Positions 52,480 to 63,784 of a stretch of 64,000 nucleotides of DNA are shown here, one piece after another. The DNA comes from Crossiella cryophila (GTDB taxonomy: Bacteria; Actinomycetota; Actinomycetes; Mycobacteriales; Pseudonocardiaceae). The stretch is from contig NZ_JACHMH010000001.1 of the NCBI RefSeq assembly GCF_014204915.1, positions 4,985,501 through 5,049,500 of the forward strand, in the 5' to 3' direction. The number at the start of each line of letters is the position of its first letter. Within the stretch, counting starts at the first letter, position 1. The position numbers and the translations under genes were made by a program. The notes beneath the pieces are model-generated. The model was not told where the DNA came from. It saw nothing but the letters and a program-made list of their open reading frames with translations, and searched no databases.

Positions 52480-52514
52480 TTGTCCACTTGTTCCACGCCT
52501 TGAACCAAGGTCTG

Positions 52515-55500
52515 ATGTCCGGCATGGCGAATGCGACTGGACCAGTCTCACGACGCGGTTTCCTTGCCACCACGGGCACCTTGCTCGCCAGTGTCGGTGT
52601 CGGCGTCGCCTTACCCGGCGCCGCGGCCGCGGCGCCCGATCCGGGACAGGCCGCTCCGCCGCGCACCGATCTGGCCAGGTTCCGGCCGGTCACCGCCTCC
52701 TCCACCGCCTATGCCGCCGCCCCGCCGGAGTTCGCGGTGGACGGCCTCGCGGTCACCGGGGTGCGGGGCAGTGGCTGGCGGGCCGAGGCGGCGGGACCGC
52801 AGTGGCTGATCGTGGATCTCCAGGCCCAGTGCCGGATCGAGGCGGTCCGCCTGGTCTTCGAGGCCAGGCTGACCGACCCGGCCTACGTGCCGGGCACCGG
52901 CTGGAACCCCTTCTCCGACACCGACGGCTCGGAGATCCTCTCCAGTGCCGCCACCGCCTTCCGGCTGGAGGTCTCGGACAACGGCACCGCCTGGCGGACC
53001 GTGTACGAGACCTCCTCCGGCCCCGGCGGCCAGGTCGACATCGCGCTGCCCACCCCCGCGACCGGTCGCTGGGTGCGGCTGTCCACCTCGCGCACGCACA
53101 ACACGAACCCGGTGGGGCTCAACGGGTTCGAGGTCTACGGCAGCACCGAACGCCCGCGCCCGGCGGTCAAGGGCTGGACCGACTGGGGCCGCAACACCCG
53201 CCCCGCCCCGGCCCTGACCGTCGGCAAGGACGGCACCGTGCCGCTGGAGTCCGGCTGGTCGCTGACCATGGACGAGTGGGCCGGGACCAGCGACGGCGCG
53301 GCACTGTCCGGCCCCAGCATCGACACCACCACCTGGCTGCCCGCCTCGGTGCCCGGCACCGTGCTGGCCGACCTGGTGGACCAGGGCCACCTGCCCGATC
53401 CGGTGTCCGGGCAGAACAACCTGCACATCCCGGAGGCGCTGTCCCGGCACAGCTGGTGGTACCGGCGGGCCTTCACCGTGCCCCGCGAGCTGGACGTCAG
53501 CGCCGGACGGCAGGTGTGGCTGGAACTGGACGGGGTCAACCACCACGGCGAGGTCTGGCTCAACGGCCACAAGGTCGGCACCGTGACCAGCCCGTTCGCC
53601 CGCGCCCACCTCAACATCACCGAAGCCCTGAAAGCGGGCAACGGCAAGCACAACCTGGCCATCCGGGTCGACCCGATGCCGCACCCCGGCACCGCGGGCG
53701 ACAAGGGCGCGGACGGCCTGGCCTTCCTGCACTCCGGCAAGCTCTACCTGGACTCGCCGACCTACCTGGCCACCTCCGGCTGGGACTGGATGCCCGCCGT
53801 ACGCGACCGCGGCGCGGGCCTGTGGAACCACGTTCGCCTGCGCAGCACCGGTTCGGCCGTCCTCGGCGACCCGAGGGTGGAGACCACCCTGCCCAACCTG
53901 CCGGACACCAGCCTGGCCGAGGTCAAGATCAGCGTTCCGGTGCGCAACCCCGGGACCGCGCCGGTGTCCGTGGTGGTGCAGGCCAGCTTCGGCGCGATCA
54001 GCCTGCGCACCACGGTGACCGTCCCCGCCGGTGGCAGCGCCAACGCCGTGTTCGCCCCGGCCGAGCACCCCGCCCTGCGGCTGCGCGACCCGAAACTGTG
54101 GTGGCCCAACGGTTACGGCGACCCCAACCTGCACGAACTCACCCTGACCGCCACCGTCGGCGGCGTCCGCAGCGACCGGCGCAGCCTGCGCTTCGGCATC
54201 CGCCAGTTCGGCTACGGCTACGACATCCCGATCAAGATCGACCCGGCCACCAACTCGGCCAAGCAGACCGTCGAGTTCGCCCCCGTCCAGGCCAAGCACG
54301 TCCGGATCCACTGTCACACCAGGGCCACCGGCTGGGGCAACTCACTGTGGAGCCTGTCCGTTGTGGACAGTGCCAAACCCGATGTCGACCTGGCCCTTGG
54401 CAAGACGGCCAGTGCGTCCTCAGTGGACAATCCGGGCAACGCCGCTGGCAACGTGGTCGACGGCAACACCGGCACCCGCTGGTCCTCGGAGTACACCGAC
54501 AACCAGTGGATCCAGGTGGACCTCGGCGCGGACACCGGGTTCGACCGGGTGGTGCTGCTGTGGGAAACCGCCTACGCCAAGGACTTCACCGTGCAGACCT
54601 CGGCCGACGGCCAGAGCTGGACGGACGTCAAGAAGGTCAGCAACGCGCCGATCCCGTTGCGGATCAGCGTGAACGGCGTGCAGGTGTACTGCCGCGGCGG
54701 CAACTGGGGCTGGGACGAACTGCTGCGCCGGATGGTCCCGGACCGGATGGACGCGGTGGTCAAGATGCACCGCGACATGAACTTCACCATGATCCGCAAC
54801 TGGATCGGCAGCAGCTACCGGGAGGAGCTGTTCGCCCAGTGCGATGAGCAGGGCATCCTGGTGTGGAACGACTTCTGGGAGGCAGGCGCCTTCCTGGCCG
54901 ACCCGCCCGGCTACGTCGACGTCGCCCGGGACACCATCCTGCGCTACCGCACCCACCCCTGCATCGTGGTCTGGTGCGCGGCCAACGAACAGCACCCGCC
55001 GCCGGCCATCCACAACGGCATCGCAAAGGCGATTGCCGAGGAACACAGCGAGATCCTGTACATGCCGGACTCCGCAGGCGGTTTCGTCTCCGGCCACGGC
55101 CCGTACTACTGGGTGGAACCCGCCAAGTACTTCGAGGCGAGCACCTACGACACCAACAACTTCGGCTTCCACACCGAGATCGGCATGCCCACCGTCCCGG
55201 TGGTGGAGAGCATGCGCAACCTGGTCGGCAAGGACCACGCCGGCTGGCCGATCGACATCACCTGGTTCCACCACGACTGGTCCACCAAGGGCAACCAGCG
55301 GCCGCAGACCTACCTGGAGGCGATCAACACCCGGCTCGGCGAGTCGACCAGCCTGGCCGAGTTCTGCCGCAAGGCCCAGTTCGTCAACTACGAGAACATG
55401 CGTGCCATGTTCGAGGCGTGGACGGCGAACCTGTGGCAGGACGCGAACGCGTTGCTGCTGTGGATGTCGCACCCGGCCTGGCACAGCACGGTGTGGCAGA

Positions 55501-56141
55501 CCTACGACTACGACCTGGACGTCAACGGCAGCTACTACGGCGCCCGCAAGGGCTGCGAGGCCCTGCACGTACAGGCGAACCCGGACGGCCAGGTAGTCGC
55601 GGCCAACCACACCCCGGTGGCGATCACCGGCGCCACGGTCAAGGCCACCCGCTACGACCTCAACGGCAAGCAACTCGGCACCCCACAGTCCCAGCAGCTC
55701 GCCATCCCCGCCTCCAACATCACCCGCGCCTTCACCGTTCCGTTCGCGGCCGACCTGCCCGCCCTGCACCTGCTACGCCTGGTCCTCAGCGACGCCAAGG
55801 GCAAGGTCCTCTCGGAGAACACCTACTGGCGCTACCGCAAACCCGAGGACATGCGCCAGCTCAACACCCTCCCCCAGACCAGGGTCTCAGTCCGCCTCAA
55901 CGACCAGCGCCCAGGCAGCCTGACCGCCACCCTGCGCAACGAAGGCCGCACAGTAGCCGCGCTGATCCGCCTCTCCGTCCGCGACCGCCGCTCCGGCGCC
56001 CGGCTGCTACCAGTGACCTACACCGACAACTACCTCTGGCTCCTCCCCGGCGAATCCCGCACCATCACCGCCACCTGGAACCCAACCAACCACCCCTCCA
56101 CCACCCCAACCCTGACAGCAGAGGGCTACAACACCCGCTAA
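52515..56141 (+). CDS. Secreted GH2 glycosidase with two discoidin (CBM32-like) domains
   Basis: A 1208-residue exported enzyme of glycoside hydrolase family 2, nearest in layout to exo-beta-glucosaminidase and beta-mannosidase members. A twin-arginine signal (SRRGFLATTGTLL) comes first, then an N-terminal F5/8C discoidin domain (about 45-215), the GH2 sugar-binding domain (about 240-420, with WYRRAFTVP and WLELDGVNHHGEVWLNG), the beta-sandwich (about 430-560), an inserted discoidin domain (about 575-715) whose two halves are in reversed order, the TIM barrel and a C-terminal beta domain. The likely acid/base is Glu825 (CAANEQ) and the nucleophile Glu888 (FHTEIG). ATG 52515 was chosen for its AAGG site; a TTG 27 bases upstream is weaker. 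The stop is TAA, one of two in the window, and is followed by the 21-bp-unit repeat. Substrate is unproven. Confidence 0.9.
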   Translation: MSGMANATGPVSRRGFLATTGTLLASVGVGVALPGAAAAAPDPGQAAPPRTDLARFRPVTASSTAYAAAPPEFAVDGLAVTGVRGSGWRAEAAGPQWLIVDLQAQCRIEAVRLVFEARLTDPAYVPGTGWNPFSDTDGSEILSSAATAFRLEVSDNGTAWRTVYETSSGPGGQVDIALPTPATGRWVRLSTSRTHNTNPVGLNGFEVYGSTERPRPAVKGWTDWGRNTRPAPALTVGKDGTVPLESGWSLTMDEWAGTSDGAALSGPSIDTTTWLPASVPGTVLADLVDQGHLPDPVSGQNNLHIPEALSRHSWWYRRAFTVPRELDVSAGRQVWLELDGVNHHGEVWLNGHKVGTVTSPFARAHLNITEALKAGNGKHNLAIRVDPMPHPGTAGDKGADGLAFLHSGKLYLDSPTYLATSGWDWMPAVRDRGAGLWNHVRLRSTGSAVLGDPRVETTLPNLPDTSLAEVKISVPVRNPGTAPVSVVVQASFGAISLRTTVTVPAGGSANAVFAPAEHPALRLRDPKLWWPNGYGDPNLHELTLTATVGGVRSDRRSLRFGIRQFGYGYDIPIKIDPATNSAKQTVEFAPVQAKHVRIHCHTRATGWGNSLWSLSVVDSAKPDVDLALGKTASASSVDNPGNAAGNVVDGNTGTRWSSEYTDNQWIQVDLGADTGFDRVVLLWETAYAKDFTVQTSADGQSWTDVKKVSNAPIPLRISVNGVQVYCRGGNWGWDELLRRMVPDRMDAVVKMHRDMNFTMIRNWIGSSYREELFAQCDEQGILVWNDFWEAGAFLADPPGYVDVARDTILRYRTHPCIVVWCAANEQHPPPAIHNGIAKAIAEEHSEILYMPDSAGGFVSGHGPYYWVEPAKYFEASTYDTNNFGFHTEIGMPTVPVVESMRNLVGKDHAGWPIDITWFHHDWSTKGNQRPQTYLEAINTRLGESTSLAEFCRKAQFVNYENMRAMFEAWTANLWQDANALLLWMSHPAWHSTVWQTYDYDLDVNGSYYGARKGCEALHVQANPDGQVVAANHTPVAITGATVKATRYDLNGKQLGTPQSQQLAIPASNITRAFTVPFAADLPALHLLRLVLSDAKGKVLSENTYWRYRKPEDMRQLNTLPQTRVSVRLNDQRPGSLTATLRNEGRTVAALIRLSVRDRRSGARLLPVTYTDNYLWLLPGESRTITATWNPTNHPSTTPTLTAEGYNTR

Positions 56142-56153
56142 CCCCCCACCCCC

Positions 56154-56295
56154 GTGTTGGCCGTTCTCGTACGGTGTGTTGGCCGAACTGGACGGTGTCT
56201 TGGCCGAACTGGACGGTGTCTTGGCCGTTATGGACGGTGTGTTGGCCGTTGGGCGTACCAGTTCGGCCAACACCGTGTACGACATCGGCCAACAC
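56154..56295 (+). repeat. Structured intergenic repeat, copy R1 (142 bp)
   Basis: Five units starting GTGTTGGCC or GTCTTGGCC follow each other at 21-22 base spacing (TTGG at 56157, 56179, 56200, 56221, 56242). Two inverted units (GGCCAA at 56265 and 56287) then close the element. The ends GTGTTGGCC and GGCCAACAC are inverted repeats; the inner GTGTTGGCCGAACTGG at 56176 pairs perfectly with its complement at 56258-56273. Arms of roughly 40 bases can thus fold on each other with tandem units in the loop. It starts 12 bases after the glycosidase TAA. Confidence 0.9.
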
Positions 56296-56313
56296 GCCGG
56301 CTTCAGGTGCTGT

Positions 56314-57393
56314 TCACGGCCGGACCGTGAGCAGCTGGATCGGCCACTGGACCCGGGACTGACCGCCGTGGAACAGGGCCACCCGGTCCATCTGCGGCAC
56401 CGGCAGCCAGATCCGGCCGTCCGGGGCGAGGAAGGGCGCGTCCGTCCAATGTAGACGCGAGTCCTGTACCACGGTGCTGATCCGGCCGTCCGGCGTGCGC
56501 CGCTTCAGCGCGTGCTCGACCAGGTCGGTGAAGTACAGGTTCCCGTGCCGGTCCATCGCGCTGCCACCTACCGCGGGCAGATCGGCCCAGGGCGTGACCC
56601 CGGCCGCGAGTTCCGCGGCGGACAGTGCCGGGTTGTCCAGGTCGCGGGTGGCGATCCGGGACCAGGGGCCGTGCAGCGAGCCGTAGTACAGCCACTGGCG
56701 GTCCGGGGACAGCTCCAGGGGATCGGCGTGCACCCGCAGTGGGCTGCCGTCCGGGGCCCGCACCACCGCGCCGTCCAGTACCAGCGGCCGGTCGGCCGGG
56801 GCGAGGGTGGAGGGATGGTTGTCCAGCACCCGCCGGGCCGTGCCGGTGATCAGGTCCAGCACGATCAGGCCGGGGCGGCCCGCGTCGGTCAGGTAGGCGT
56901 GGCGGCCGTTGAAGCGCACGTCGTCGACGTAGCTGCCGGGCAGCGCCACCGAGTCGGCGAAGTGGTGGATCCGGGTGACCTGGTTGGTGCGCAGGTTGAT
57001 CCGGACCAGCTTGGCGGCGCGGGGGAGCGGGTTGCCACCGAAATCGGGTGACCCGGTGTCCACCGCCCACAGCGAGCCGTGGCCGTCGTGGTGGATGGCG
57101 TTGATGTTGACGAACTTGGTGGCCGGGTCCTGGCCGGGCTGCCAGGAGTTCCACTCGGCGTTCGGATAGGGCCTGGCCTGACCGTGGACCAGTCTGGCCA
57201 GCGCCGGGCCCCTGGAGCCGCTCCAGCGTGGGCCGGAGACGAAGACCCGGCCCCGGTCAACGGCCACCGCGTTCCAGATCATCTGCTGGCTCTGCGCCGC
57301 GACCCGCAGGTCGGCTCGGGCGGTGGCCTCGGCGGTCGTGGCGGTCAGCGGGACGGCCAGTGCGACCGCCAGCACTACGGCGGAAAACCTCAT
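56314..57393 (-). CDS. Secreted royal-jelly/yellow-family beta-propeller protein
   Basis: A 359-residue exported protein. The Sec signal is MRFSAVVLAVALAVPLTATT; the mature part has the six-bladed MRJP/yellow pattern (MIWNAVAVDRGRVFVSGPRW, LWAVDTGSPDFGG, AAKLVRINL, YVDDVRFN, AYLTDAGRPGLIVLDL, SPDRQWLYYGSLHG, GNLYFTD). ATG 57393 follows AGGTTG by eight bases and starts at the signal peptide; the frame is open a few codons upstream from a TTG. Bacterial members may bind or hydrolyse small molecules, but the role is unknown. It converges on the glycosidase gene with repeat R1 between them. Confidence 0.85.
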   Translation of the reverse strand: MRFSAVVLAVALAVPLTATTAEATARADLRVAAQSQQMIWNAVAVDRGRVFVSGPRWSGSRGPALARLVHGQARPYPNAEWNSWQPGQDPATKFVNINAIHHDGHGSLWAVDTGSPDFGGNPLPRAAKLVRINLRTNQVTRIHHFADSVALPGSYVDDVRFNGRHAYLTDAGRPGLIVLDLITGTARRVLDNHPSTLAPADRPLVLDGAVVRAPDGSPLRVHADPLELSPDRQWLYYGSLHGPWSRIATRDLDNPALSAAELAAGVTPWADLPAVGGSAMDRHGNLYFTDLVEHALKRRTPDGRISTVVQDSRLHWTDAPFLAPDGRIWLPVPQMDRVALFHGGQSRVQWPIQLLTVRP

Positions 57394-57593
57394 GTGCGGC
57401 AACCTAAACAACAGGTGGTGGTTTCATGCAAGGACGGCAGGGCACCTCGCGGTTACCAGGTCACCCCCGGGTGACGCACCTTTCGCACCCGGATCCCGCA
57501 TAGTGGATCACCCGTCCGTGTCGCCCTCGATCGCACTACTCTCCGCCTCACGCCCGGCTTCCGGGCTGCTGGCCGAAGTCGAGGGAGTCGCTG
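57394..57593. promoter_or_regulatory. Divergent promoter region with palindrome
   Basis: This 200-base gap separates the leftward propeller gene and the rightward ABC importer. GTCACCC-CC-GGGTGAC at 57460-57475 is a perfect 7-bp inverted repeat and a candidate operator for the importer. A GAGGGAG ribosome site lies just before 57594. Confidence 0.45.
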
Positions 57594-59063
57594 ATGCGAC
57601 ACACGCTCAGGGGCGTGGTGCTGTTCCTGCTGTTGATGATCGTGCTGCCGGGGCAGGCGAGCGCGCAGGCCGCCGAACAACCCGTGGTCCGGGTCGGCAC
57701 CGAGGGGACCTACCCGCCGTTCTCCTTCCACGATCCGCGCAGCCAGGAACTCACCGGCTACGACATCGAAGTGATCAAGGCCATCGCCGGCAAGGCCGGG
57801 TGGCGGCTGGAGTTCGTCGAGACCCAGTGGGACGCGATCTTCCCGGCGCTGGACGCCAGGCGGATCGACCTGATCGCCAACCAGGTCTCGGTCAACGACG
57901 AACGCAAGGCCAAATACGGCCTGTCCAGCACCTACACCTACTCCCGCGGTGTGGTGGTCCGGCGCACGGGTGACACCGGCATCAAGTCGCTGGCCGACCT
58001 CAAGGGCAAGACCACCGCCCAGTCCAGCACCAGCAACTGGGCCAAGGTCGCCAAGGACGCCGGGGCCAAGGTCGAGGCCGTCGAGGGCTTCGCGCAGGCC
58101 GCGGCACTGCTCGCGCAGGGCCGGGTGGACGCGATCGTCAACGACAACATCGCCGTGCTGGACTACCTGGCCAGCACCGGTTCCACCGCGGTGGAGATCG
58201 CCGGGAACGCCGGGGACAAGATCAGCGAGCAGGCGCTGACCTTCCGCAAGGACGATGGATCCCTGCTCGCCCAGGCCAACCAGGCGATCACCGCGCTCAA
58301 GGCCGACGGCACGCTCAACGGCCTGTCGCAGAAGTACTTCAAGGCCAACGTCTCGGTGCCCGACGGCGGCAACGCCGACCTGTCCCAGGGCCGCGGCAGC
58401 CGCAGCACCTGGGAGGTACTGGCCAGCACGGCCTGGCCGATGTTCGTCGGCCTGGTCGAGGTGACCATCCCGCTGACCGCGCTGAGCTTCGCGATCGGCC
58501 TGGTGCTCGCGTTGTTCGTGGCACTGGCCCGGATCTCCGCTTACCGGGTGCTGGCCGGACTGGCCCGCGCGTTCATCTCGATCATCCGCGGCACCCCGCT
58601 GCTGCTGCAGCTGTTCATCGTCTTCTACGGGCTGCCCCAGCTCGGGCTGAAGTTCCCGCCCTTCGCCGCGGCGGTGATCGCCTTCAGCCTCAACGTGGCG
58701 GGCTACGCCGCCGAGGTGGTGCGCTCGGCGATCCTGTCCGTGCCCAAGGGCCAGTTCGAGGCCGCGGCCACCATCGGGCTGGACTACCGGAAGACGTTGC
58801 GCCGGATCATCCTGCCGCAGGCGGCCAGGACCGCGGTGCCGCCGCTGTCCAACACGTTGCTGTCCCTGGTCAAGGACACCTCACTGGGTTCGGTGGTGTT
58901 GCTGACCGAGTTGTTCCGGCAGTCCCAGCTCGCCGCGGCGGAGAGCAACGAGTTCCTCGCGCTGTACTCCTTCGCCGGGCTGTACTACTGGCTGATCTGC
59001 GTGGCTCTCTCCGCCGGGCAGAAACGACTGGAGATCCGACTGAACAGGTATGTGACCACATGA
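57594..59063 (+). CDS. Amino-acid ABC importer: fused binding protein and permease
   Basis: A 489-residue protein that joins two usually separate subunits. After a signal peptide (MRHTLRGVVLFLLLMIVLPG), a family 3 solute-binding domain (about 30-250) shows VGTEGTYPPFSFHD, LTGYDIEVIKAIAGKAGWRLEF and DAIVNDNIAVLDYL. A HisM/GlnP-type permease (about 275-485) follows, with four to five membrane helices and the EAA loop (EAAATIGLDYRKTLRRIILPQA) that contacts the ATPase. Polar amino acids or cystine are the likely cargo, by family. Such fusions are known in some Gram-positive importers. The start follows a GAGGGAG site; the stop overlaps the ATPase start (ATGA). Confidence 0.93.
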   Translation: MRHTLRGVVLFLLLMIVLPGQASAQAAEQPVVRVGTEGTYPPFSFHDPRSQELTGYDIEVIKAIAGKAGWRLEFVETQWDAIFPALDARRIDLIANQVSVNDERKAKYGLSSTYTYSRGVVVRRTGDTGIKSLADLKGKTTAQSSTSNWAKVAKDAGAKVEAVEGFAQAAALLAQGRVDAIVNDNIAVLDYLASTGSTAVEIAGNAGDKISEQALTFRKDDGSLLAQANQAITALKADGTLNGLSQKYFKANVSVPDGGNADLSQGRGSRSTWEVLASTAWPMFVGLVEVTIPLTALSFAIGLVLALFVALARISAYRVLAGLARAFISIIRGTPLLLQLFIVFYGLPQLGLKFPPFAAAVIAFSLNVAGYAAEVVRSAILSVPKGQFEAAATIGLDYRKTLRRIILPQAARTAVPPLSNTLLSLVKDTSLGSVVLLTELFRQSQLAAAESNEFLALYSFAGLYYWLICVALSAGQKRLEIRLNRYVTT

Positions 59064-59842
59064 CTGAGACCGCAGAACAGGACCTCCGCATCCAGGTGCG
59101 CGGGCTGGCCAAGTCCTTCGGCGACGCGCATGTGTTGCGCGGCATCGACTTCGACTCGCCGCGCGGGAGTTCGACCGTCCTGTTGGGACCGTCCGGCTCC
59201 GGCAAGACCACCCTGCTGCGCTCGCTCAACGCGCTGGAGACCCCCGAACGCGGGGTGGTCCGGATCGACGAGGTCGAGGTGGACTTCGCCGCGCTGCCCA
59301 CGGGCAAGGCCGGTCGCCGGGAGAGCGGCAGGCTGCGCGCGCAGAGCGGCATGGTGTTCCAGACGCACAACCTGTTCCCGCACCGCACGGTCCTGGAGAA
59401 CATCATCGAGGGCCCGGTCATCGCCCAGCAGCGGCCCAAGGAGGAGGCCGTCGCCGAGGCGAAGGTGCTGCTGGACCAGGTGGGGCTCGGCGACCGGGCG
59501 GACGCCTACCCGTACCAGCTCTCCGGCGGGCAGCAGCAACGCGTTGGCATCGCCCGCGCGCTGGCGCTCAAACCGAGGGTGGTGCTCTTCGACGAGCCGA
59601 CCTCGGCGCTGGACCCGGAACTGGTCGGTGAGGTGCTCGCCGTGATCAAGGACCTGGCCGCCGATGGCTGGACGATGGTGATCGTCACGCACGAGATCCG
59701 GTTCGCCGGGCAGGTGGCCGACCAGGTGCTGTTCCTGGACGGCGGGGTCATCGTGGAACAGGGCCCGCCCAGCCAGGTGATCGAGCACCCCCAGGAGGAA
59801 CGGACCCAGCGCTTCCTCAAGCGCATCCTGGACCCGGGCTGA
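59060..59842 (+). CDS. Amino-acid ABC importer ATPase
   Basis: A 260-residue ABC ATPase that powers the fused importer just upstream. Walker A is GPSGSGKT (residues 43-50), the signature is LSGGQQQR near 154, Walker B is VVLFDEP and is followed by TSALDPE, and the switch His is in VTHE. Between Walker A and the signature there is an NLFPH Q-loop region typical of polar amino-acid importers (GlnQ/HisP type). Its ATG overlaps the upstream TGA, so the pair is translationally coupled. A bidirectional hairpin follows seven bases after the stop. Confidence 0.95.
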   Translation: MTETAEQDLRIQVRGLAKSFGDAHVLRGIDFDSPRGSSTVLLGPSGSGKTTLLRSLNALETPERGVVRIDEVEVDFAALPTGKAGRRESGRLRAQSGMVFQTHNLFPHRTVLENIIEGPVIAQQRPKEEAVAEAKVLLDQVGLGDRADAYPYQLSGGQQQRVGIARALALKPRVVLFDEPTSALDPELVGEVLAVIKDLAADGWTMVIVTHEIRFAGQVADQVLFLDGGVIVEQGPPSQVIEHPQEERTQRFLKRILDPG

Positions 59843-59848
59843 GTAGCG

Positions 59849-59881
59849 CGGGCGCTGTCCCCATGGCGAGGACAGCGCCCG
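59849..59881. terminator. Bidirectional hairpin terminator
   Basis: A 12-bp perfect stem (CGGGCGCTGTCC with its complement) around a nine-base loop lies between the importer ATPase stop and the convergent stop at 59888. Confidence 0.8.
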
Positions 59882-59887
59882 GCTCGC

Positions 59888-60904
59888 TCAGCGGCAGGTC
59901 CAGCTGAACGGGAAGGTGTTCTGGTAGGTCTCGCCGAAGATGGTGCCGTCGTCGGCGACCACGGTCGCCCTGGCCGTGCTGGCGCCCGCGGGCACCGGCA
60001 GCTCGGCGAGGAACTTCGTGCCGTGCCAGACCGCGGGCGCGCCACTCCAGGAGCCGATCGAACCGCTGACCAGCCCACGCTTGTTCATCGCGTGCGCGGG
60101 GCCGCTGCGGTCCAGGTGCACGAACCAGTTGGTCTTCGGCTCCCACAGGTAGGACACCGGGGTGGAGGTCCGCAGGTCCAGCACCAGCACCCGCCCGTTG
60201 GCGATGCCGCGGGCGGTGACGCCGCTCTCCGGCTTGGGCAGTTTGGTGACGGTTCCGTTGTGCCACAACGCGACCTGGTAGCCGCCGGTGAGCAGGACGG
60301 TGCCGTCCTCGTCGATGTCGGTGGCCGCCGGATAGTCGATCTCCGACGGATCGATCACCGTCGCCTGGGTGCTGCCCGCCCGCCACAGCAGGACCTGGCC
60401 GCGGCCGTCGCTGTCCCGGTTGGCCGAGGCGACCACGTCACCACGGTTGTTGATCGCGTTGGGCTGCAACGAGGTCAGGCCCGGCGGCACGGTCAGCTGG
60501 CGGTAGACCCCTTGCCGGGTCTGGGTGAGCACGTAGTACTTCTGCGTGCCGCCGCTGAAATCGGCTCCACGCAACAGGACCACGCCCGCGGCGTTCTCAT
60601 CCACCGGCAGCGTCCAGCTCACCCCTGGCGCCGGGGCCTGCTTGACCGGAACGCCGCGCACCCAGCGGTAGAAGGTGACATCGGCGCTGGTCGGGCCGTA
60701 GTAGCCGGAGTAGTTCCCGCGCCCGTCCGCGCCGCTGACGTGGACGTAGGCCGGGTCGGCCCCCGCGGGCACCGGCACCGGCGTTGCCCGCCAGGTGCAG
60801 GCCGCCGCCGGGGCTTCCGGCGCGGCCGTGGCCACCGCGCTGACCCCGGCCGAGGCCAGCAGCACGGTGAGCACGACCGCGGTCGTGCGCATTGGTGCGA
60901 ACAT
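59888..60904 (-). CDS. Secreted HAF-repeat-like beta-propeller protein, paralogue 1
   Basis: A 338-residue exported protein and the last of three tandem paralogues. A signal peptide (through ATAAPEA) precedes a mature domain starting ACTW and ending FSWTCR. Repeated phrases such as AVWHGTKFLAELP, INNRGDVVASANRDSDGRG and VVADDGTIFGETYQ recur every 40-50 residues, as in HAF-repeat extracellular proteins, and suggest a beta-propeller. Single Cys residues near each end may join the first and last blades. The ATG follows GAGGGGG; a second ATG 12 bases later is possible. No catalytic motif is visible and the function is unknown. The gap to the upstream paralogue is 17 bases. Confidence 0.82.
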   Translation of the reverse strand: MFAPMRTTAVVLTVLLASAGVSAVATAAPEAPAAACTWRATPVPVPAGADPAYVHVSGADGRGNYSGYYGPTSADVTFYRWVRGVPVKQAPAPGVSWTLPVDENAAGVVLLRGADFSGGTQKYYVLTQTRQGVYRQLTVPPGLTSLQPNAINNRGDVVASANRDSDGRGQVLLWRAGSTQATVIDPSEIDYPAATDIDEDGTVLLTGGYQVALWHNGTVTKLPKPESGVTARGIANGRVLVLDLRTSTPVSYLWEPKTNWFVHLDRSGPAHAMNKRGLVSGSIGSWSGAPAVWHGTKFLAELPVPAGASTARATVVADDGTIFGETYQNTFPFSWTCR

Positions 60905-60921
60905 CTTTCCCCCTCAACTCC

Positions 60922-61929
60922 TCAGGAACAGTGCCAGCGCACCGGAATCGACGGCTGCGTGCTGGCCTTGCCGTGCACCACCCCGTCATCCCCCACGACG
61001 TTCACCCGCCCACCGGTCGCGCCAGGCGGCAACGGCAGCTCGGCCAGCAGCCGGGTACCGCGCCAGACCGCGGGCGGGCCGTCCAGGTTGTCCAGCTGCC
61101 CGCCGATCAGGTTCAGCCGGTTGATCCCGTTCGCCGCCCCGCCACGCAGTGGCTGGCTGACCACGCCGGTGCTCAGTTCCCACTGCCAGGCGGTGATCGG
61201 GTTCTGCCCGTTGAACCGGAGACCGACCACCCGGCCGTTGTTCAGCGAACGCGCCATCGCATCGGTCGAGCCCGGCATCGCGGTGAACACCCCGGCCCGC
61301 CACACGTGCACGTTGCTCCGCCCGCCGCTGAGCAGCACGGTCCCGTCCTCGTCGATGTCGACCAGGATCGGCACCCCGGTACCCGGCGGCGTGATCACCT
61401 CCGGCGTGCTCGCACCGGCCCGCCACAACAGCACGAAGTCCTTGCCGTTCTGCCAGATCGCGGCCACCACATCGCCGCCGTCGTTGACCGCGGCCGATTC
61501 CTGCAGTTTGGCCCCGGCGGGCAGTGGCAGCACGCGGTAGCCGTCGGCGGGGGAGTGGGTGAGCAGTACCCGCTCGCCCTGGGCGTCCTTGCCGCGCAAC
61601 ACCACGGTCCCGCCGTTGTTCTCATCCACCGGCTGGGCCCCGGTCACCCCCGGCGCGGCGGGCTGCCGCACGGCGAAACCGTTGACCCAGCGGAAGAACT
61701 CCGCGTCGTCGACGTTGGCCCGCCGGTACCCGGAGTACCCGCCCTGGGCGTTGGACCCGGTCACGGTGAACTCACTGGCCGGTATCCCGGGCGGACCCGC
61801 CACCGGGGTCACCTGCCAGGTGCACGGCGCGTCCGCCGGCGCGGCGACCGCGGTGCCGGTGAGCCCGGCGGTCAGCGCGACCGCCGCCAGCACCGTACCT
61901 ACCGATCGGATGGTTTCCTTGCTGCGCAT
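60922..61929 (-). CDS. Secreted HAF-repeat-like beta-propeller protein, paralogue 2
   Basis: A 335-residue exported protein, middle member of the tandem set. The signal is MRSKETIRSVGTVLAAVALT; the mature part starts CTWQVTPV and ends VRWHCS. It shares GGYSGYRRANVDDAEFFRWVNG, VNDGGDVVAAIWQNG, VDIDEDGTVLLSGG and PAVWRGTRLLAELPLP with its neighbours at the same spacing. An in-frame start 33 bases earlier would lie inside the next gene and lacks a better ribosome site, so ATG 61929 is preferred. It follows the upstream paralogue by 17 bases, as paralogue 1 follows it, which points to duplication of a whole gene-plus-spacer unit. Confidence 0.82.
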   Translation of the reverse strand: MRSKETIRSVGTVLAAVALTAGLTGTAVAAPADAPCTWQVTPVAGPPGIPASEFTVTGSNAQGGYSGYRRANVDDAEFFRWVNGFAVRQPAAPGVTGAQPVDENNGGTVVLRGKDAQGERVLLTHSPADGYRVLPLPAGAKLQESAAVNDGGDVVAAIWQNGKDFVLLWRAGASTPEVITPPGTGVPILVDIDEDGTVLLSGGRSNVHVWRAGVFTAMPGSTDAMARSLNNGRVVGLRFNGQNPITAWQWELSTGVVSQPLRGGAANGINRLNLIGGQLDNLDGPPAVWRGTRLLAELPLPPGATGGRVNVVGDDGVVHGKASTQPSIPVRWHCS

Positions 61930-61946
61930 GGCTTTCTCCCCAGTTG

Positions 61947-62960
61947 TCAGCGGCACGACCACCGCACCGGCACACTGCCCGGCTCGAAGGTCTCGCCGAA
62001 CACCGACCCGTCATCGGCCACCAGTTGCGGCCGGCCGGGCCGTCCGTCCAGTGCGGGCAGTTCGGCCAGGAAGGTCGAGCCCTGCCACACCGCGGCCGGA
62101 CCGTCCACCCGCTCCCCGGCGATCAGCCCGTCGCGGTTGATGCCCTCGGCGGTGCGCCCGCGCTCGGGGTAGACCACCTTGCCGCCGCGGGAATCCCAGA
62201 CGTAGGACTGGGCCGGGGCGGCGTAGCCCTGGCCGACCACCAGGCCGTCGCTGATCGCCCGGCCCACCACGGCCCCGGCCGGCTCCGGCAGCCGGGTGGT
62301 CACGCCATCGCGCCAGACGAAGACCTCGTAACCGCCGCTGACCAGCACGGACCCGTCCTCGTCCACGTCCTCCGCGGTCGGGTGGCTCGCCTCCGGCACA
62401 TCGAGCACCCGCGGCCCGGCCCCGGTGGAGAGGGCCTCCCACAGCACCACCACGTTCCGGTTGTCCGAGCTGCGCCGGGCCGAGGCGACCACGTCACCGC
62501 GGTTGTTGATCGCGGCCCCGCTCGCATGGGTCAGCCCGGCCGGGATCGGCAGCGCGTGGTAGGCGCCGGCCCTGGAGAGCGTGAACACCTGCCGCGCCCC
62601 GGTCGCGGTGTTCATCCCGTCCACCAGGATCGTCCCGGCGCGGTTCTCGTCCCGGGGGAACACCCAGTTCACCCCGGCGGGCGGGGCCAGTCGCTCCGGG
62701 ACCCCGCCGGTCCAGCGCAGCAGGGTGATGTCGCCGCTGTTGGGGGCGTAGTAGCCGGAGTAGCCGCCCAGCCCGTCCACCCCGGTGACGCTGGCGTACT
62801 GCGGATCAAGCCCGGCAGGCGCGGCCACCGCCTGCGCCTGCCAGGTGCAGGCCGGGCTCGGCTTTGCTGCCGCCGAAGCGGGTGCCGCGAGTCCGGTGCT
62901 GACAACAGTGCCGATGAGTGCCGCGACCGTGGCCGCGCGCGCCAAGGAAACGCCTGACAT
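61947..62960 (-). CDS. Secreted HAF-repeat-like beta-propeller protein, paralogue 3 (first in operon)
   Basis: A 337-residue exported protein and the promoter-proximal member of the tandem set. The signal is MSGVSLARAATVAALIGTVV; the mature part starts ACTWQAQAV and ends VRWSCR. It has the common blades GGYSGYYAPNSGDITLLRW, INNRGDVVASARRSSDNRN, VDEDGSVLVSGGYEVFVWRDG and PAAVWQGSTFLAELP. The ATG at 62960 begins the signal peptide and is preceded by GGGGGAA. The longer open frame upstream runs through repeat R2 and is rejected. Role unknown; it may bind a ligand at the cell surface. Confidence 0.82.
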   Translation of the reverse strand: MSGVSLARAATVAALIGTVVSTGLAAPASAAAKPSPACTWQAQAVAAPAGLDPQYASVTGVDGLGGYSGYYAPNSGDITLLRWTGGVPERLAPPAGVNWVFPRDENRAGTILVDGMNTATGARQVFTLSRAGAYHALPIPAGLTHASGAAINNRGDVVASARRSSDNRNVVVLWEALSTGAGPRVLDVPEASHPTAEDVDEDGSVLVSGGYEVFVWRDGVTTRLPEPAGAVVGRAISDGLVVGQGYAAPAQSYVWDSRGGKVVYPERGRTAEGINRDGLIAGERVDGPAAVWQGSTFLAELPALDGRPGRPQLVADDGSVFGETFEPGSVPVRWSCR

Positions 62961-63081
62961 GCGTTGTTCCCCCTCAGAAACCCCAGGTTGAAACCCCATT
63001 CTGCAACGTTGTAAAGCCCCGGTGCCACCAAGTGACTGCATCTGGCCTAACGCCCACCAGATCCCAACACCCCCTCCCGCC

Positions 63082-63202
63082 GTGTTGGCCGATGTCGTAC
63101 CCAGTGTTGGCCGAACTGGTACGCCATCCGGCCAACACACCGCCCACAACGGCCAAGACACCGTCCAGTTCGGCCAACACACCGTACGAGAACGGCCAAC
63201 AC
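63082..63202 (-). repeat. Structured intergenic repeat, copy R2 (121 bp)
   Basis: Read on the - strand, this copy matches R1 closely over its length, including both GTGTTGGCC/GGCCAACAC ends, but has one 21-bp unit fewer (142 versus 121 bases). It starts 12 bases after the TAA stop of the epimerase gene, with the same C-rich spacer as R1. It lies about 120 bases upstream of the HAF operon start. Confidence 0.9.
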
Positions 63203-63214
63203 GGTGGCGGGGGC

Positions 63215-63784
63215 TTAGTCGGTGTACTCCAGCAGCAGGCCCTGGGCGCGGACCTCGGCCAGGGTGGGGGCGGCCGCGTCCTTGGCCGAGATCAGCGGGA
63301 ACTCGTCGAAGCCCCAGGGCAGGTTCAGTTCCGGGTCCAGCGGGTTGATGTCGATCTGGGTGCCGGGCACGTGCGCGGTGCCGAGCACGTAGCTGATGCA
63401 GGTGTCATCGGTCAGGCTGAGGAAGCCGTGGCCGAAGCCCTCCGGGATGTAGAGCGCGGTGCCCCCGGCCGCGGTCAGCTCGGTGACCACGTACTTGCCG
63501 TAGGCGGGCGAGCCCAGCCGCAGGTCGACCATGATGTCCCGCAGCGCGCCACGCACACAGGTGACGTACTTGGCCTGGCCAGGCGGGTTGCGCACCCCGT
63601 GCAGGCCACGCAGCGTGTTCCGGCGCGACACCGAGTAGTTGATCTGTGCCGGGCGGAACGGCCTGCCGATCTCCTCGGACAGCGCCTCGGTGCGCAGGTT
63701 CTCGAAGAAGCTGCCGCGCTCGTCCGCGATCGGCTCCGGGGTGATGACCAGTGCCCCGGGCAACTCGGTGTGGTGGAACTTCAT
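63215..63784 (-). CDS. dTDP-4-dehydro-6-deoxyhexose 3,5-epimerase (RmlC family)
   Basis: A 189-residue cupin of the RmlC family, which epimerises C3 and/or C5 of dTDP-4-keto-6-deoxyglucose in rhamnose and antibiotic deoxysugar pathways. The catalytic dyad His62 (LRGLHG) and Asp169 and the acid Tyr132 (SYVLG) are present; the position of a second conserved Tyr of rhamnose-type enzymes holds His138. The tail with NPLDPELNLPW followed by LAEVRAQGLLLEY resembles epimerases of antibiotic sugar pathways. It has a strong GAGGAGGG ribosome site and an ATGA overlap with a short upstream frame. No other sugar gene is visible, so a sugar cluster beyond the right edge is likely. The stop is TAA, followed by repeat R2. 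Confidence 0.93.
   Translation of the reverse strand: MKFHHTELPGALVITPEPIADERGSFFENLRTEALSEEIGRPFRPAQINYSVSRRNTLRGLHGVRNPPGQAKYVTCVRGALRDIMVDLRLGSPAYGKYVVTELTAAGGTALYIPEGFGHGFLSLTDDTCISYVLGTAHVPGTQIDINPLDPELNLPWGFDEFPLISAKDAAAPTLAEVRAQGLLLEYTD

Follow-up and report, generated by a model that had tools for sequence, protein, structure and literature searches.

What are the two inverted copies of a short palindromic repeat that bracket some 7 kb of the Crossiella cryophila chromosome, and how do they relate to the genes beside them? The window, by which we mean the whole stretch of 64,000 nucleotides that was analysed (positions 4985501-5049500 of a host genome held in a single contig of 10,058,141 bases), carries one copy, R1, on the + strand at window positions 56154..56295 and the other, R2, on the − strand at 63082..63202. 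An original prediction, made from the letters of the window, took them for a dispersed intergenic palindromic element, perhaps terminator-like or mobile, that was linked to TAA stop codons and might flip the block in between. Our analysis shows that both belong to a dispersed, BOX/REP-like family of palindromic repeats that is specific to Crossiella and made of 21/22-bp units in inverted arrays. The new part of the finding is a halo of strand-biased composition in the sequence on both sides of the elements. The reading that we favor as a whole, with a probability of about 0.4, is a hairpin repeat of gene 3′-ends combined with selection for an unstructured lead-in.

Five Crossiella genomes were compared, namely the host (G000), Crossiella sp. 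S99.2 (G001), G002, G003 and G004. Genes were called with a simple purpose-written script based on codon usage and not with a standard annotator, and for the statistics 1.6 Mb of host sequence was used along with 0.66 Mb from S99.2. R1 and R2 are two of many copies dispersed genome-wide, and these copies together with the search of relatives bear out the dispersed intergenic element of the original prediction. Pairs of the form TTGGCC-N6-GTAC-N6-TTGGCC number 575 in the host, 355 in S99.2, 228 in G002, 140 in G003 and 0 in G004; the pattern is present in 5 of 346 genomes of the host's family, including four of the five Crossiella genomes, and outside the genus a single TTGGCC-N6-GTAC pair match was found in one of the 341 other genomes. 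Pairs of the form GTGTTGGCCG-N11/12-GTGTTGGCCG (558 in the host, 87 in S99.2, 231 in G002, 92 in G003 and 2 in G004) occur in 8 of 80 genomes, the host counted, and an exact search of a named genome collection with one unit pair returned 11 stretches, all from Crossiella sp. S99.2. Bar the one outside match, the family has so far been found only in Crossiella, and no title treating it appeared among the literature matches listed. Its spread along the host chromosome looks uneven at ~0.4-1.74 Mb, where no GTGTTGGCCG-N11/12-GTGTTGGCCG pair is listed between 398864 and 1738839, such pairs being frequent elsewhere in the listed part.

Elements whose arms point inward, as those of R1 and R2 do, were assigned to class A, and elements with outward-pointing arms and a loop to class B; the 40 clusters in 1.2 Mb around the window comprise 13 of class A, 10 of class B and 17 with single or mixed arms. 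A class A tag, TTGGCCGAACTGGTACNCC, has 44 copies in the host genome, and the 35 copies that were read show a short arm of 2-3 units and a long arm of 3-8 units. The element ends are C-rich and loosely conserved. Single sites in S99.2 hold two subfamilies together, GTGTTGGCCGTT and GAGTTGGCCCAA, which at their variable positions are distinguished mostly by T/A and G/C swaps. Composite modules of ~0.8-1 kb without called genes, in which single inverted repeat arrays bracket inner hairpins, were seen at L062:6930-7750, L073:9024-9909 and G000:4786426-4787459, with inner hairpin arms of 57-70 nt in the two that were analysed.

The 22-bp form of the unit can be written GTG-TTGGCC-N6-GTAC-N6, and its regularity raises the possibility that the units are binding sites of a DNA-binding protein, nucleoid or segregation, with the arrays marking gene ends or organising the chromosome. 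As 21-22 bp correspond to two helical turns, tandem units would present the same face, and 112 of 147 unit steps measure 22 bp and 32 measure 21 bp. The stretch that separates TTGGCC from GTAC is variable, within the host and S99.2 as well as from one to the other, and in the listed units of G003 GTGTTGGCCG and GTAC recur with different inner bases. However, the invariance of TTGGCC and GTAC holds by construction, both having been selected for by the search patterns; the arrays are inverted so that hairpins form, there is no candidate protein, and G004 is without the tandem pattern (0 pairs of the TTGGCC type, 2 GTGTTGGCCG pairs). We consider a binding-site array unlikely.

Elements settle in the gaps between genes, chiefly past gene ends. 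Although only 9.4% of the 1.2 Mb is non-genic, 38 of the 40 clusters lie outside called genes, as do all 33 clusters of a second set, drawn from 20 further host regions that surround class A copies. In this second set, the class A elements with both neighbours called (22 of 25) occupy 16 convergent, 4 tandem and 2 divergent gaps, compared with 56, 179 and 49 such gaps among all gene pairs. For all classes in the 1.2 Mb the corresponding numbers are 14, 17 and 7 (38 of 40 clusters) vs 174, 610 and 173 for all pairs.

The stop codons beside the elements are also unusual. TAA makes up only 7% of stops in the 1.2 Mb (60 of 918 confident genes), so that the rarity on which the proposed link to TAA depended is real, and yet it accounts for 12 of the 28 stops within 60 bp of an element, next to 7 TAG and 9 TGA; among genes without an element and with at least 100 bp behind them, the share is 23 of 176 (p 0.0005). 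The second set gave 12 TAA in 33 stops near elements vs 12 in 191 (p 1.2e-5), or vs 5 in 38 for genes with a long gap (p 0.02), and S99.2 gave 5 in 16 vs 25 in 408 (p 0.003). The 33 stops of the second set lie −1 to 58 bp from the element, with TAA at 12 bp in 4 of them. Of the suggestion that stop and spacer are part of the element, the tie between element and stop type stands (12/28 vs 60/918; 12/33 vs 12/191), but the distance varies; the link is an enrichment and not a rule, 12 bases and TAA being frequent but not fixed. We suggest that the change from TGA to TAA may be part of the same loss of G that appears in the flanks as strand skew.

From either side, the strand that enters an element is poor in G and T and rich in A and C over about 100-300 bp. 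The G-C skew in the 42 flanks of 21 isolated elements is −0.44 at 0-20 bp, a stretch whose first bases are still part of the C-rich end of the element itself, about −0.2 at 20-60 bp, −0.1 at 60-100 bp and about 0 past 200 bp. At 16-50 bp the skew is −0.33 where a long arm faces a gene end (26 flanks) and −0.31 and −0.32 in class B (11 and 3 flanks); it is −0.09 where a short arm faces a gene end (23 flanks), −0.14 where it faces a gene start (9), −0.09 where a long arm faces a gene start (7) and −0.04 to −0.55 in the remaining groups of 1 to 6 flanks, compared with 0.001 in 131 control regions upstream of genes. Coding sequence is affected as well, the third-position skew of the last 99 nt being −0.41 in 23 genes beside elements vs −0.06 in 665 genes elsewhere, −0.42 vs −0.054 in the second host set (p 1.8e-11) and −0.26 vs −0.08 in S99.2 (p 0.002). 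The last 100 nt beside elements are predicted to fold at −30.6 kcal/mol (63 genes) vs −41.3 kcal/mol elsewhere (977 genes).

Orthologous genes of the host and S99.2 show that the skew goes with the element. The pairs share at least 80% identity, an element is counted when at least two units lie within 200 bp behind the gene, and since the pairs are not polarised, the loss of an element in one species counts like a gain in the other. In the 7 pairs with an element in the host only, the skew is −0.49 in the host vs −0.27 in S99.2 (p 0.008), with TAA in 3/7 vs 1/7; in the 19 pairs with an element in S99.2 only, it is +0.02 in the host and −0.27 in S99.2 (p 0.00025), with TAA in 1/19 vs 8/19. Where both genes have an element (12 pairs) the values are −0.25 and −0.39, with TAA in 3/12 and 3/12, and where neither has one (285 pairs) they are −0.054 and −0.055, with 14 and 12 TAA. 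Reading the differences from the element-less to the element-bearing gene, the ratio of G/T-to-A/C changes to the reverse in the S99.2-only pairs is 144:26 over 0-100 nt, then 98:29 and 79:49, and 177:122 over 300-600 nt; the host-only pairs gave 47:10, 33:17, 29:24 and 60:46 over the same distances, and the last 100 nt of pairs without an element gave 869:882. A looser, earlier run of this comparison gave the same picture.

For the gene upstream of R1, substitutions could be polarised with S99.2 and G003. In its last 500 nt (55639..56138, + strand), 36 of 39 host-derived substitutions go from G/T to A/C and none in reverse, and the density of host changes climbs from ~2 per 100 nt far off to 13 per 100 nt at the gene end, where amino-acid changes occur too. 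At the host element 4603534 the ratio on the long-arm side is 8:0 in 200 nt and 1:2 in the next 100, and on the short-arm side 1:3 in the first 100 nt, the G002 rows being left out.

How might such a halo arise? The element is predicted to form a very stable hairpin on either strand, and the predicted folding of R1 and R2 beats 200 shuffles with z −5.6 and −8.0. Such a hairpin would most likely act at the 3′-end, where it could halt or fence transcription from both sides and shield the 3′-ends of mRNAs. No base pair forms in RNA unless one of the partners is G or U, and a strand of A and C thus gives a barely folding, C-rich RNA; selection may have kept the lead-in unstructured, which would let the hairpin fold without interference or give Rho a place to load. 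Selection is favored by the weaker predicted folding of the last 100 nt beside elements and by the kind of change seen: relative to the expectation from pairs without an element, G/T-to-A/C differences in the last 100 nt of the S99.2-only pairs are 3.1x at synonymous and 1.5x at non-synonymous positions, and reverse differences are reduced to 0.34x and 0.56x, respectively.

The close rival is that the halo is mutational. The palindrome would here repeatedly extrude a hairpin, be cleaved or stall synthesis, and repair or single-strand exposure would alter one strand on each side, with changes of C to T, C to G and A to G on the leaving strand, equivalent to G to A, G to C and T to C on the entering strand, while the repeat itself would be a selfish element tolerated at gene ends. 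This would suit a halo that is centred on the element, extends to both sides and to flanks facing gene starts, is shared by class A, class B, single-arm groups and the elements of S99.2, is absent from other gene ends, and comes with amino-acid changes at the R1 gene end. A pure source of mutation, on the other hand, should raise synonymous and non-synonymous changes alike and leave the reverse differences unchanged, neither of which is the case; many of the changes are G>C transversions, and neither R1 nor the 4603534 element shows an excess on its short-arm side. We regard the mutational origin as possible but somewhat doubtful.

Several observations count against selection for a clean lead-in at gene ends, or limit how much of the skew it can explain. 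Beyond 1 kb at R1, host changes still lean toward A/C (18:5) and S99.2 changes lean the opposite way (3:22), which suggests that part of the skew is lineage background, and the convergent gene on the short-arm side of R1 shows no excess (0 or 1 change in its last 100 nt). Third-position skew is missing (−0.01, 34 genes) from convergent genes that have a long gap but lack an element; this disposes of a general C-richness of gene ends as the explanation, and it also means that termination as such does not call for an A,C lead-in. At 66-116 bp, flanks facing gene ends do have a stronger halo than those facing gene starts (p 0.002), which speaks for selection, but flanks facing gene starts have one too, with (K-M)/(K+M) at −0.16 over 16-66 bp in 38 flanks, which favors a process at the DNA level; the two kinds of flank do not differ significantly at 16-66 bp (p 0.08) or 116-216 bp (p 0.35), nor do the two sides of 19 tandem elements taken as pairs (p 0.13). 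The arms of the same element pair no better than shuffled partners, although the class A test mixed orientations and counts little. Finally, a consensus scan of 55900-63500 found no hairpin followed by a T-run at R1 or R2, and of the terminator-like character once proposed for them it is the predicted hairpin that is retained. A test of co-variation between the two flanks of an element likewise gave no pairing excess over shuffled partners.

On balance, we rank selection for a clean lead-in slightly above strand-biased mutation. It is conceivable, and we put it forward tentatively, that the sequence around each element is subject to continual strand-biased rewriting, a change from G,T to A,C on the entering strand that is tied to the palindrome, acts on both sides over up to several hundred bases, alters adjacent codons and stops, and leaves no trace where the element is missing. 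If true, such a strand-specific, repeat-driven substitution process would fall under no system known to us. In this repeat family the presence or absence of a non-coding element can be matched, gene pair by gene pair, to directional change in the adjoining coding strand, and this strand bias may also account for the odd stop-codon bias beside the elements. With it one can ask directly whether dispersed palindromes behave as parasites and mutate their surroundings, or serve as gene-end devices whose neighbours come under selection. A short second Rho-like gene (G000:C1:5521118-5521321, L230) was noted with a host class A repeat ~100 bp or less behind it. The Rho RNA-binding domain occurs twice per genome in all of the Crossiella compared, which is neutral for the favored reading, and because the short paralogue is present in all five genomes, including G004, it was dropped as a partner of the repeat.

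Comparison with S99.2 and G003 bears on whether the elements move. Within 0.66 Mb of S99.2, 17 of the 40 clusters have collinear flanks; four of these lay inside one alignment and went unscored (5298135 alone was judged by eye), and the 13 scored rows correspond to 11 S99.2 segments. Two rows have no repeat array in S99.2, R1 and the host element 4603534, where 7 bases remain, and the other 11 (9 segments) have repeat units, mostly of the other subfamily GAGTTGGCCCAA...GGTACG, from which it appears that positions are often kept while units differ. Some sites are thus empty in one of the species, and others are occupied by different subfamilies in different species. S99.2 has an alpha/beta-hydrolase gene in place of R1 (Abhydrolase_6, E 6e-18; window 56142-56302 vs L147:7588-8292) and an element of another subfamily at the R2 site, and G003 has no element at the R1 site. 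No target-site duplication was found at two empty sites (4603534 in S99.2 and R1 in G003). Mobility has in its favor that presence varies between species, but neither a mobilising enzyme nor a target duplication was found.

The near-identity and inverted arrangement of R1 and R2 might suggest that they terminate a 7-kb block which can invert or transpose, but this is highly improbable. The flipping that had been proposed for 56.1-63.2 kb is not seen in S99.2, where the block is collinear and in the same orientation, minus one of three tandem genes, with R1 missing and R2 different. Many further copies exist in both orientations, so that an inverted pair is expected by chance, and no recombinase family was found among the eight proteins scanned, three of which match no Pfam family. 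The gene absent from S99.2, at window 59881-60912, has two neighbours that like it match no Pfam family, and it was perhaps lost by recombination between paralogues.

Within the window, R1 (142 bp) has five + units at 56154, 56176, 56197, 56218 and 56239, followed by two − units at 56264-56273 and 56286-56295. R2 (121 bp) has four − units at 63193, 63171, 63150 and 63129 and two opposite units at 63082 and 63104. The class A tag lies in the short arms, at 56252..56270 on the − strand in R1 (host genome 5041752-5041770) and at 63107..63125 on the + strand in R2 (host genome 5048607-5048625). Alignment of the two over 121 columns gave 7 mismatches and one 21-bp gap, or 94% identity outside the extra unit, in agreement with the description of near-identical copies that differ by one unit. 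Each lies 12 bases past a TAA, as had been noted, with a C-rich 12-nt spacer at its long-arm end: TAA at 56139-56141 and spacer CCCCCCACCCCC at R1 (56139..56153, + strand), and TAA at 63215-63217 and spacer GCCCCCGCCACC at R2 (63203..63217, − strand), the spacers being equal at 9 of 12 positions when counted by eye. These are indeed the sole TAA stops among the 19 confidently called window genes. They end an exo-beta-D-glucosaminidase-like GH2 gene ahead of R1 (52488..56141, + strand) and a dTDP-4-dehydrorhamnose 3,5-epimerase-like gene ahead of R2 (63215..63784, − strand); the convergent neighbour of R1, an MRJP/SMP-30-like gene (56314..57411, − strand), has a TGA stop 18 bp from the short-arm end. 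At up to one mismatch, GTGTTGGCCG occurs 42 times in the window vs a shuffle mean of 11.7 (sd 3.6), and all 10 exact copies are inside R1 or R2.

No Rfam family matched R1 or R2 above its gathering score; a mir-750 match at R2 fell below it and was taken as a hairpin artefact. The window matches that cleared the gathering score were nine to ASpks, none near R1 or R2, spread over the polyketide synthase part (1979-40093, − strand) and probably reflecting repeated coding sequence. A phage or plasmid origin was set aside, R1 being unmatched in phage and plasmid collections in a distant-mode search. A second, 13-bp palindrome, GTCCACWGTGGAC, is strewn over the genome as single sites, mostly inside called genes in the listed rows and with many in the polyketide synthase genes of the window. 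It has 488 sites in the host, 330-500 in the other four Crossiella genomes and up to 640 in another genus, with at least one site in 42 of 60 genomes searched (the host counted) and 0 or 1 for the reversed-pattern control. It resembles the highly iterated palindrome HIP1 of cyanobacteria.

Among known systems, intrinsic terminators differ in that the hairpins of R1 and R2 are without a U-run. Rho-dependent terminators have rut sites, a C-rich and G-poor lead-in in the RNA, and the lead-in of the Crossiella repeat is likewise C-rich and G-poor, but it is present where the repeat is and on both sides, is depleted of U as well and reaches up to ~300 nt. Like miniature inverted-repeat transposable elements (MITEs), the Crossiella repeat is small, non-coding, made of inverted repeats and present or absent between relatives; unlike them, it has no demonstrated target duplication or autonomous partner, and its ends are loosely conserved. 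Like REP sequences and their clusters (BIMEs), it occurs between genes as hundreds of short palindromes arranged in inverted arrays, but there is no matching gene for a REP-associated transposase (RAYT). Stretches matching its Y1 transposase domain (PF01797) number one in the host, with an internal stop, and three in S99.2, that is, in only two of the five genomes; G004 has none, and as the repeat-bearing G002 and G003 lack them too, mobilisation by a RAYT is unsupported. REP palindromes of 20-40 bp have been described with a GTAG/CGTC tag at their foot (PMC3733652). Neither motif is in the 22-bp unit consensus, and three CGTC lie on the − strand within R1, at 21-bp units. The closest known kind is the BOX element. 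Streptococcal BOX elements (boxA-boxB(n)-boxC) are dispersed and intergenic, enriched between convergent genes, predicted to form a stem-loop and variable in the number of inner modules (PMC3049150), and the Crossiella repeat is also dispersed, intergenic and over-represented between convergent genes, with a predicted hairpin; its unit count varies as well, but the units that vary in number are those of the arms. It differs from BOX in that the 21/22-bp unit builds the arms themselves, as inverted arrays, in that it has two opposite architectures and a GC-rich actinomycete host, and in that its neighbours show a halo of strand composition together with a shift in stop codons.

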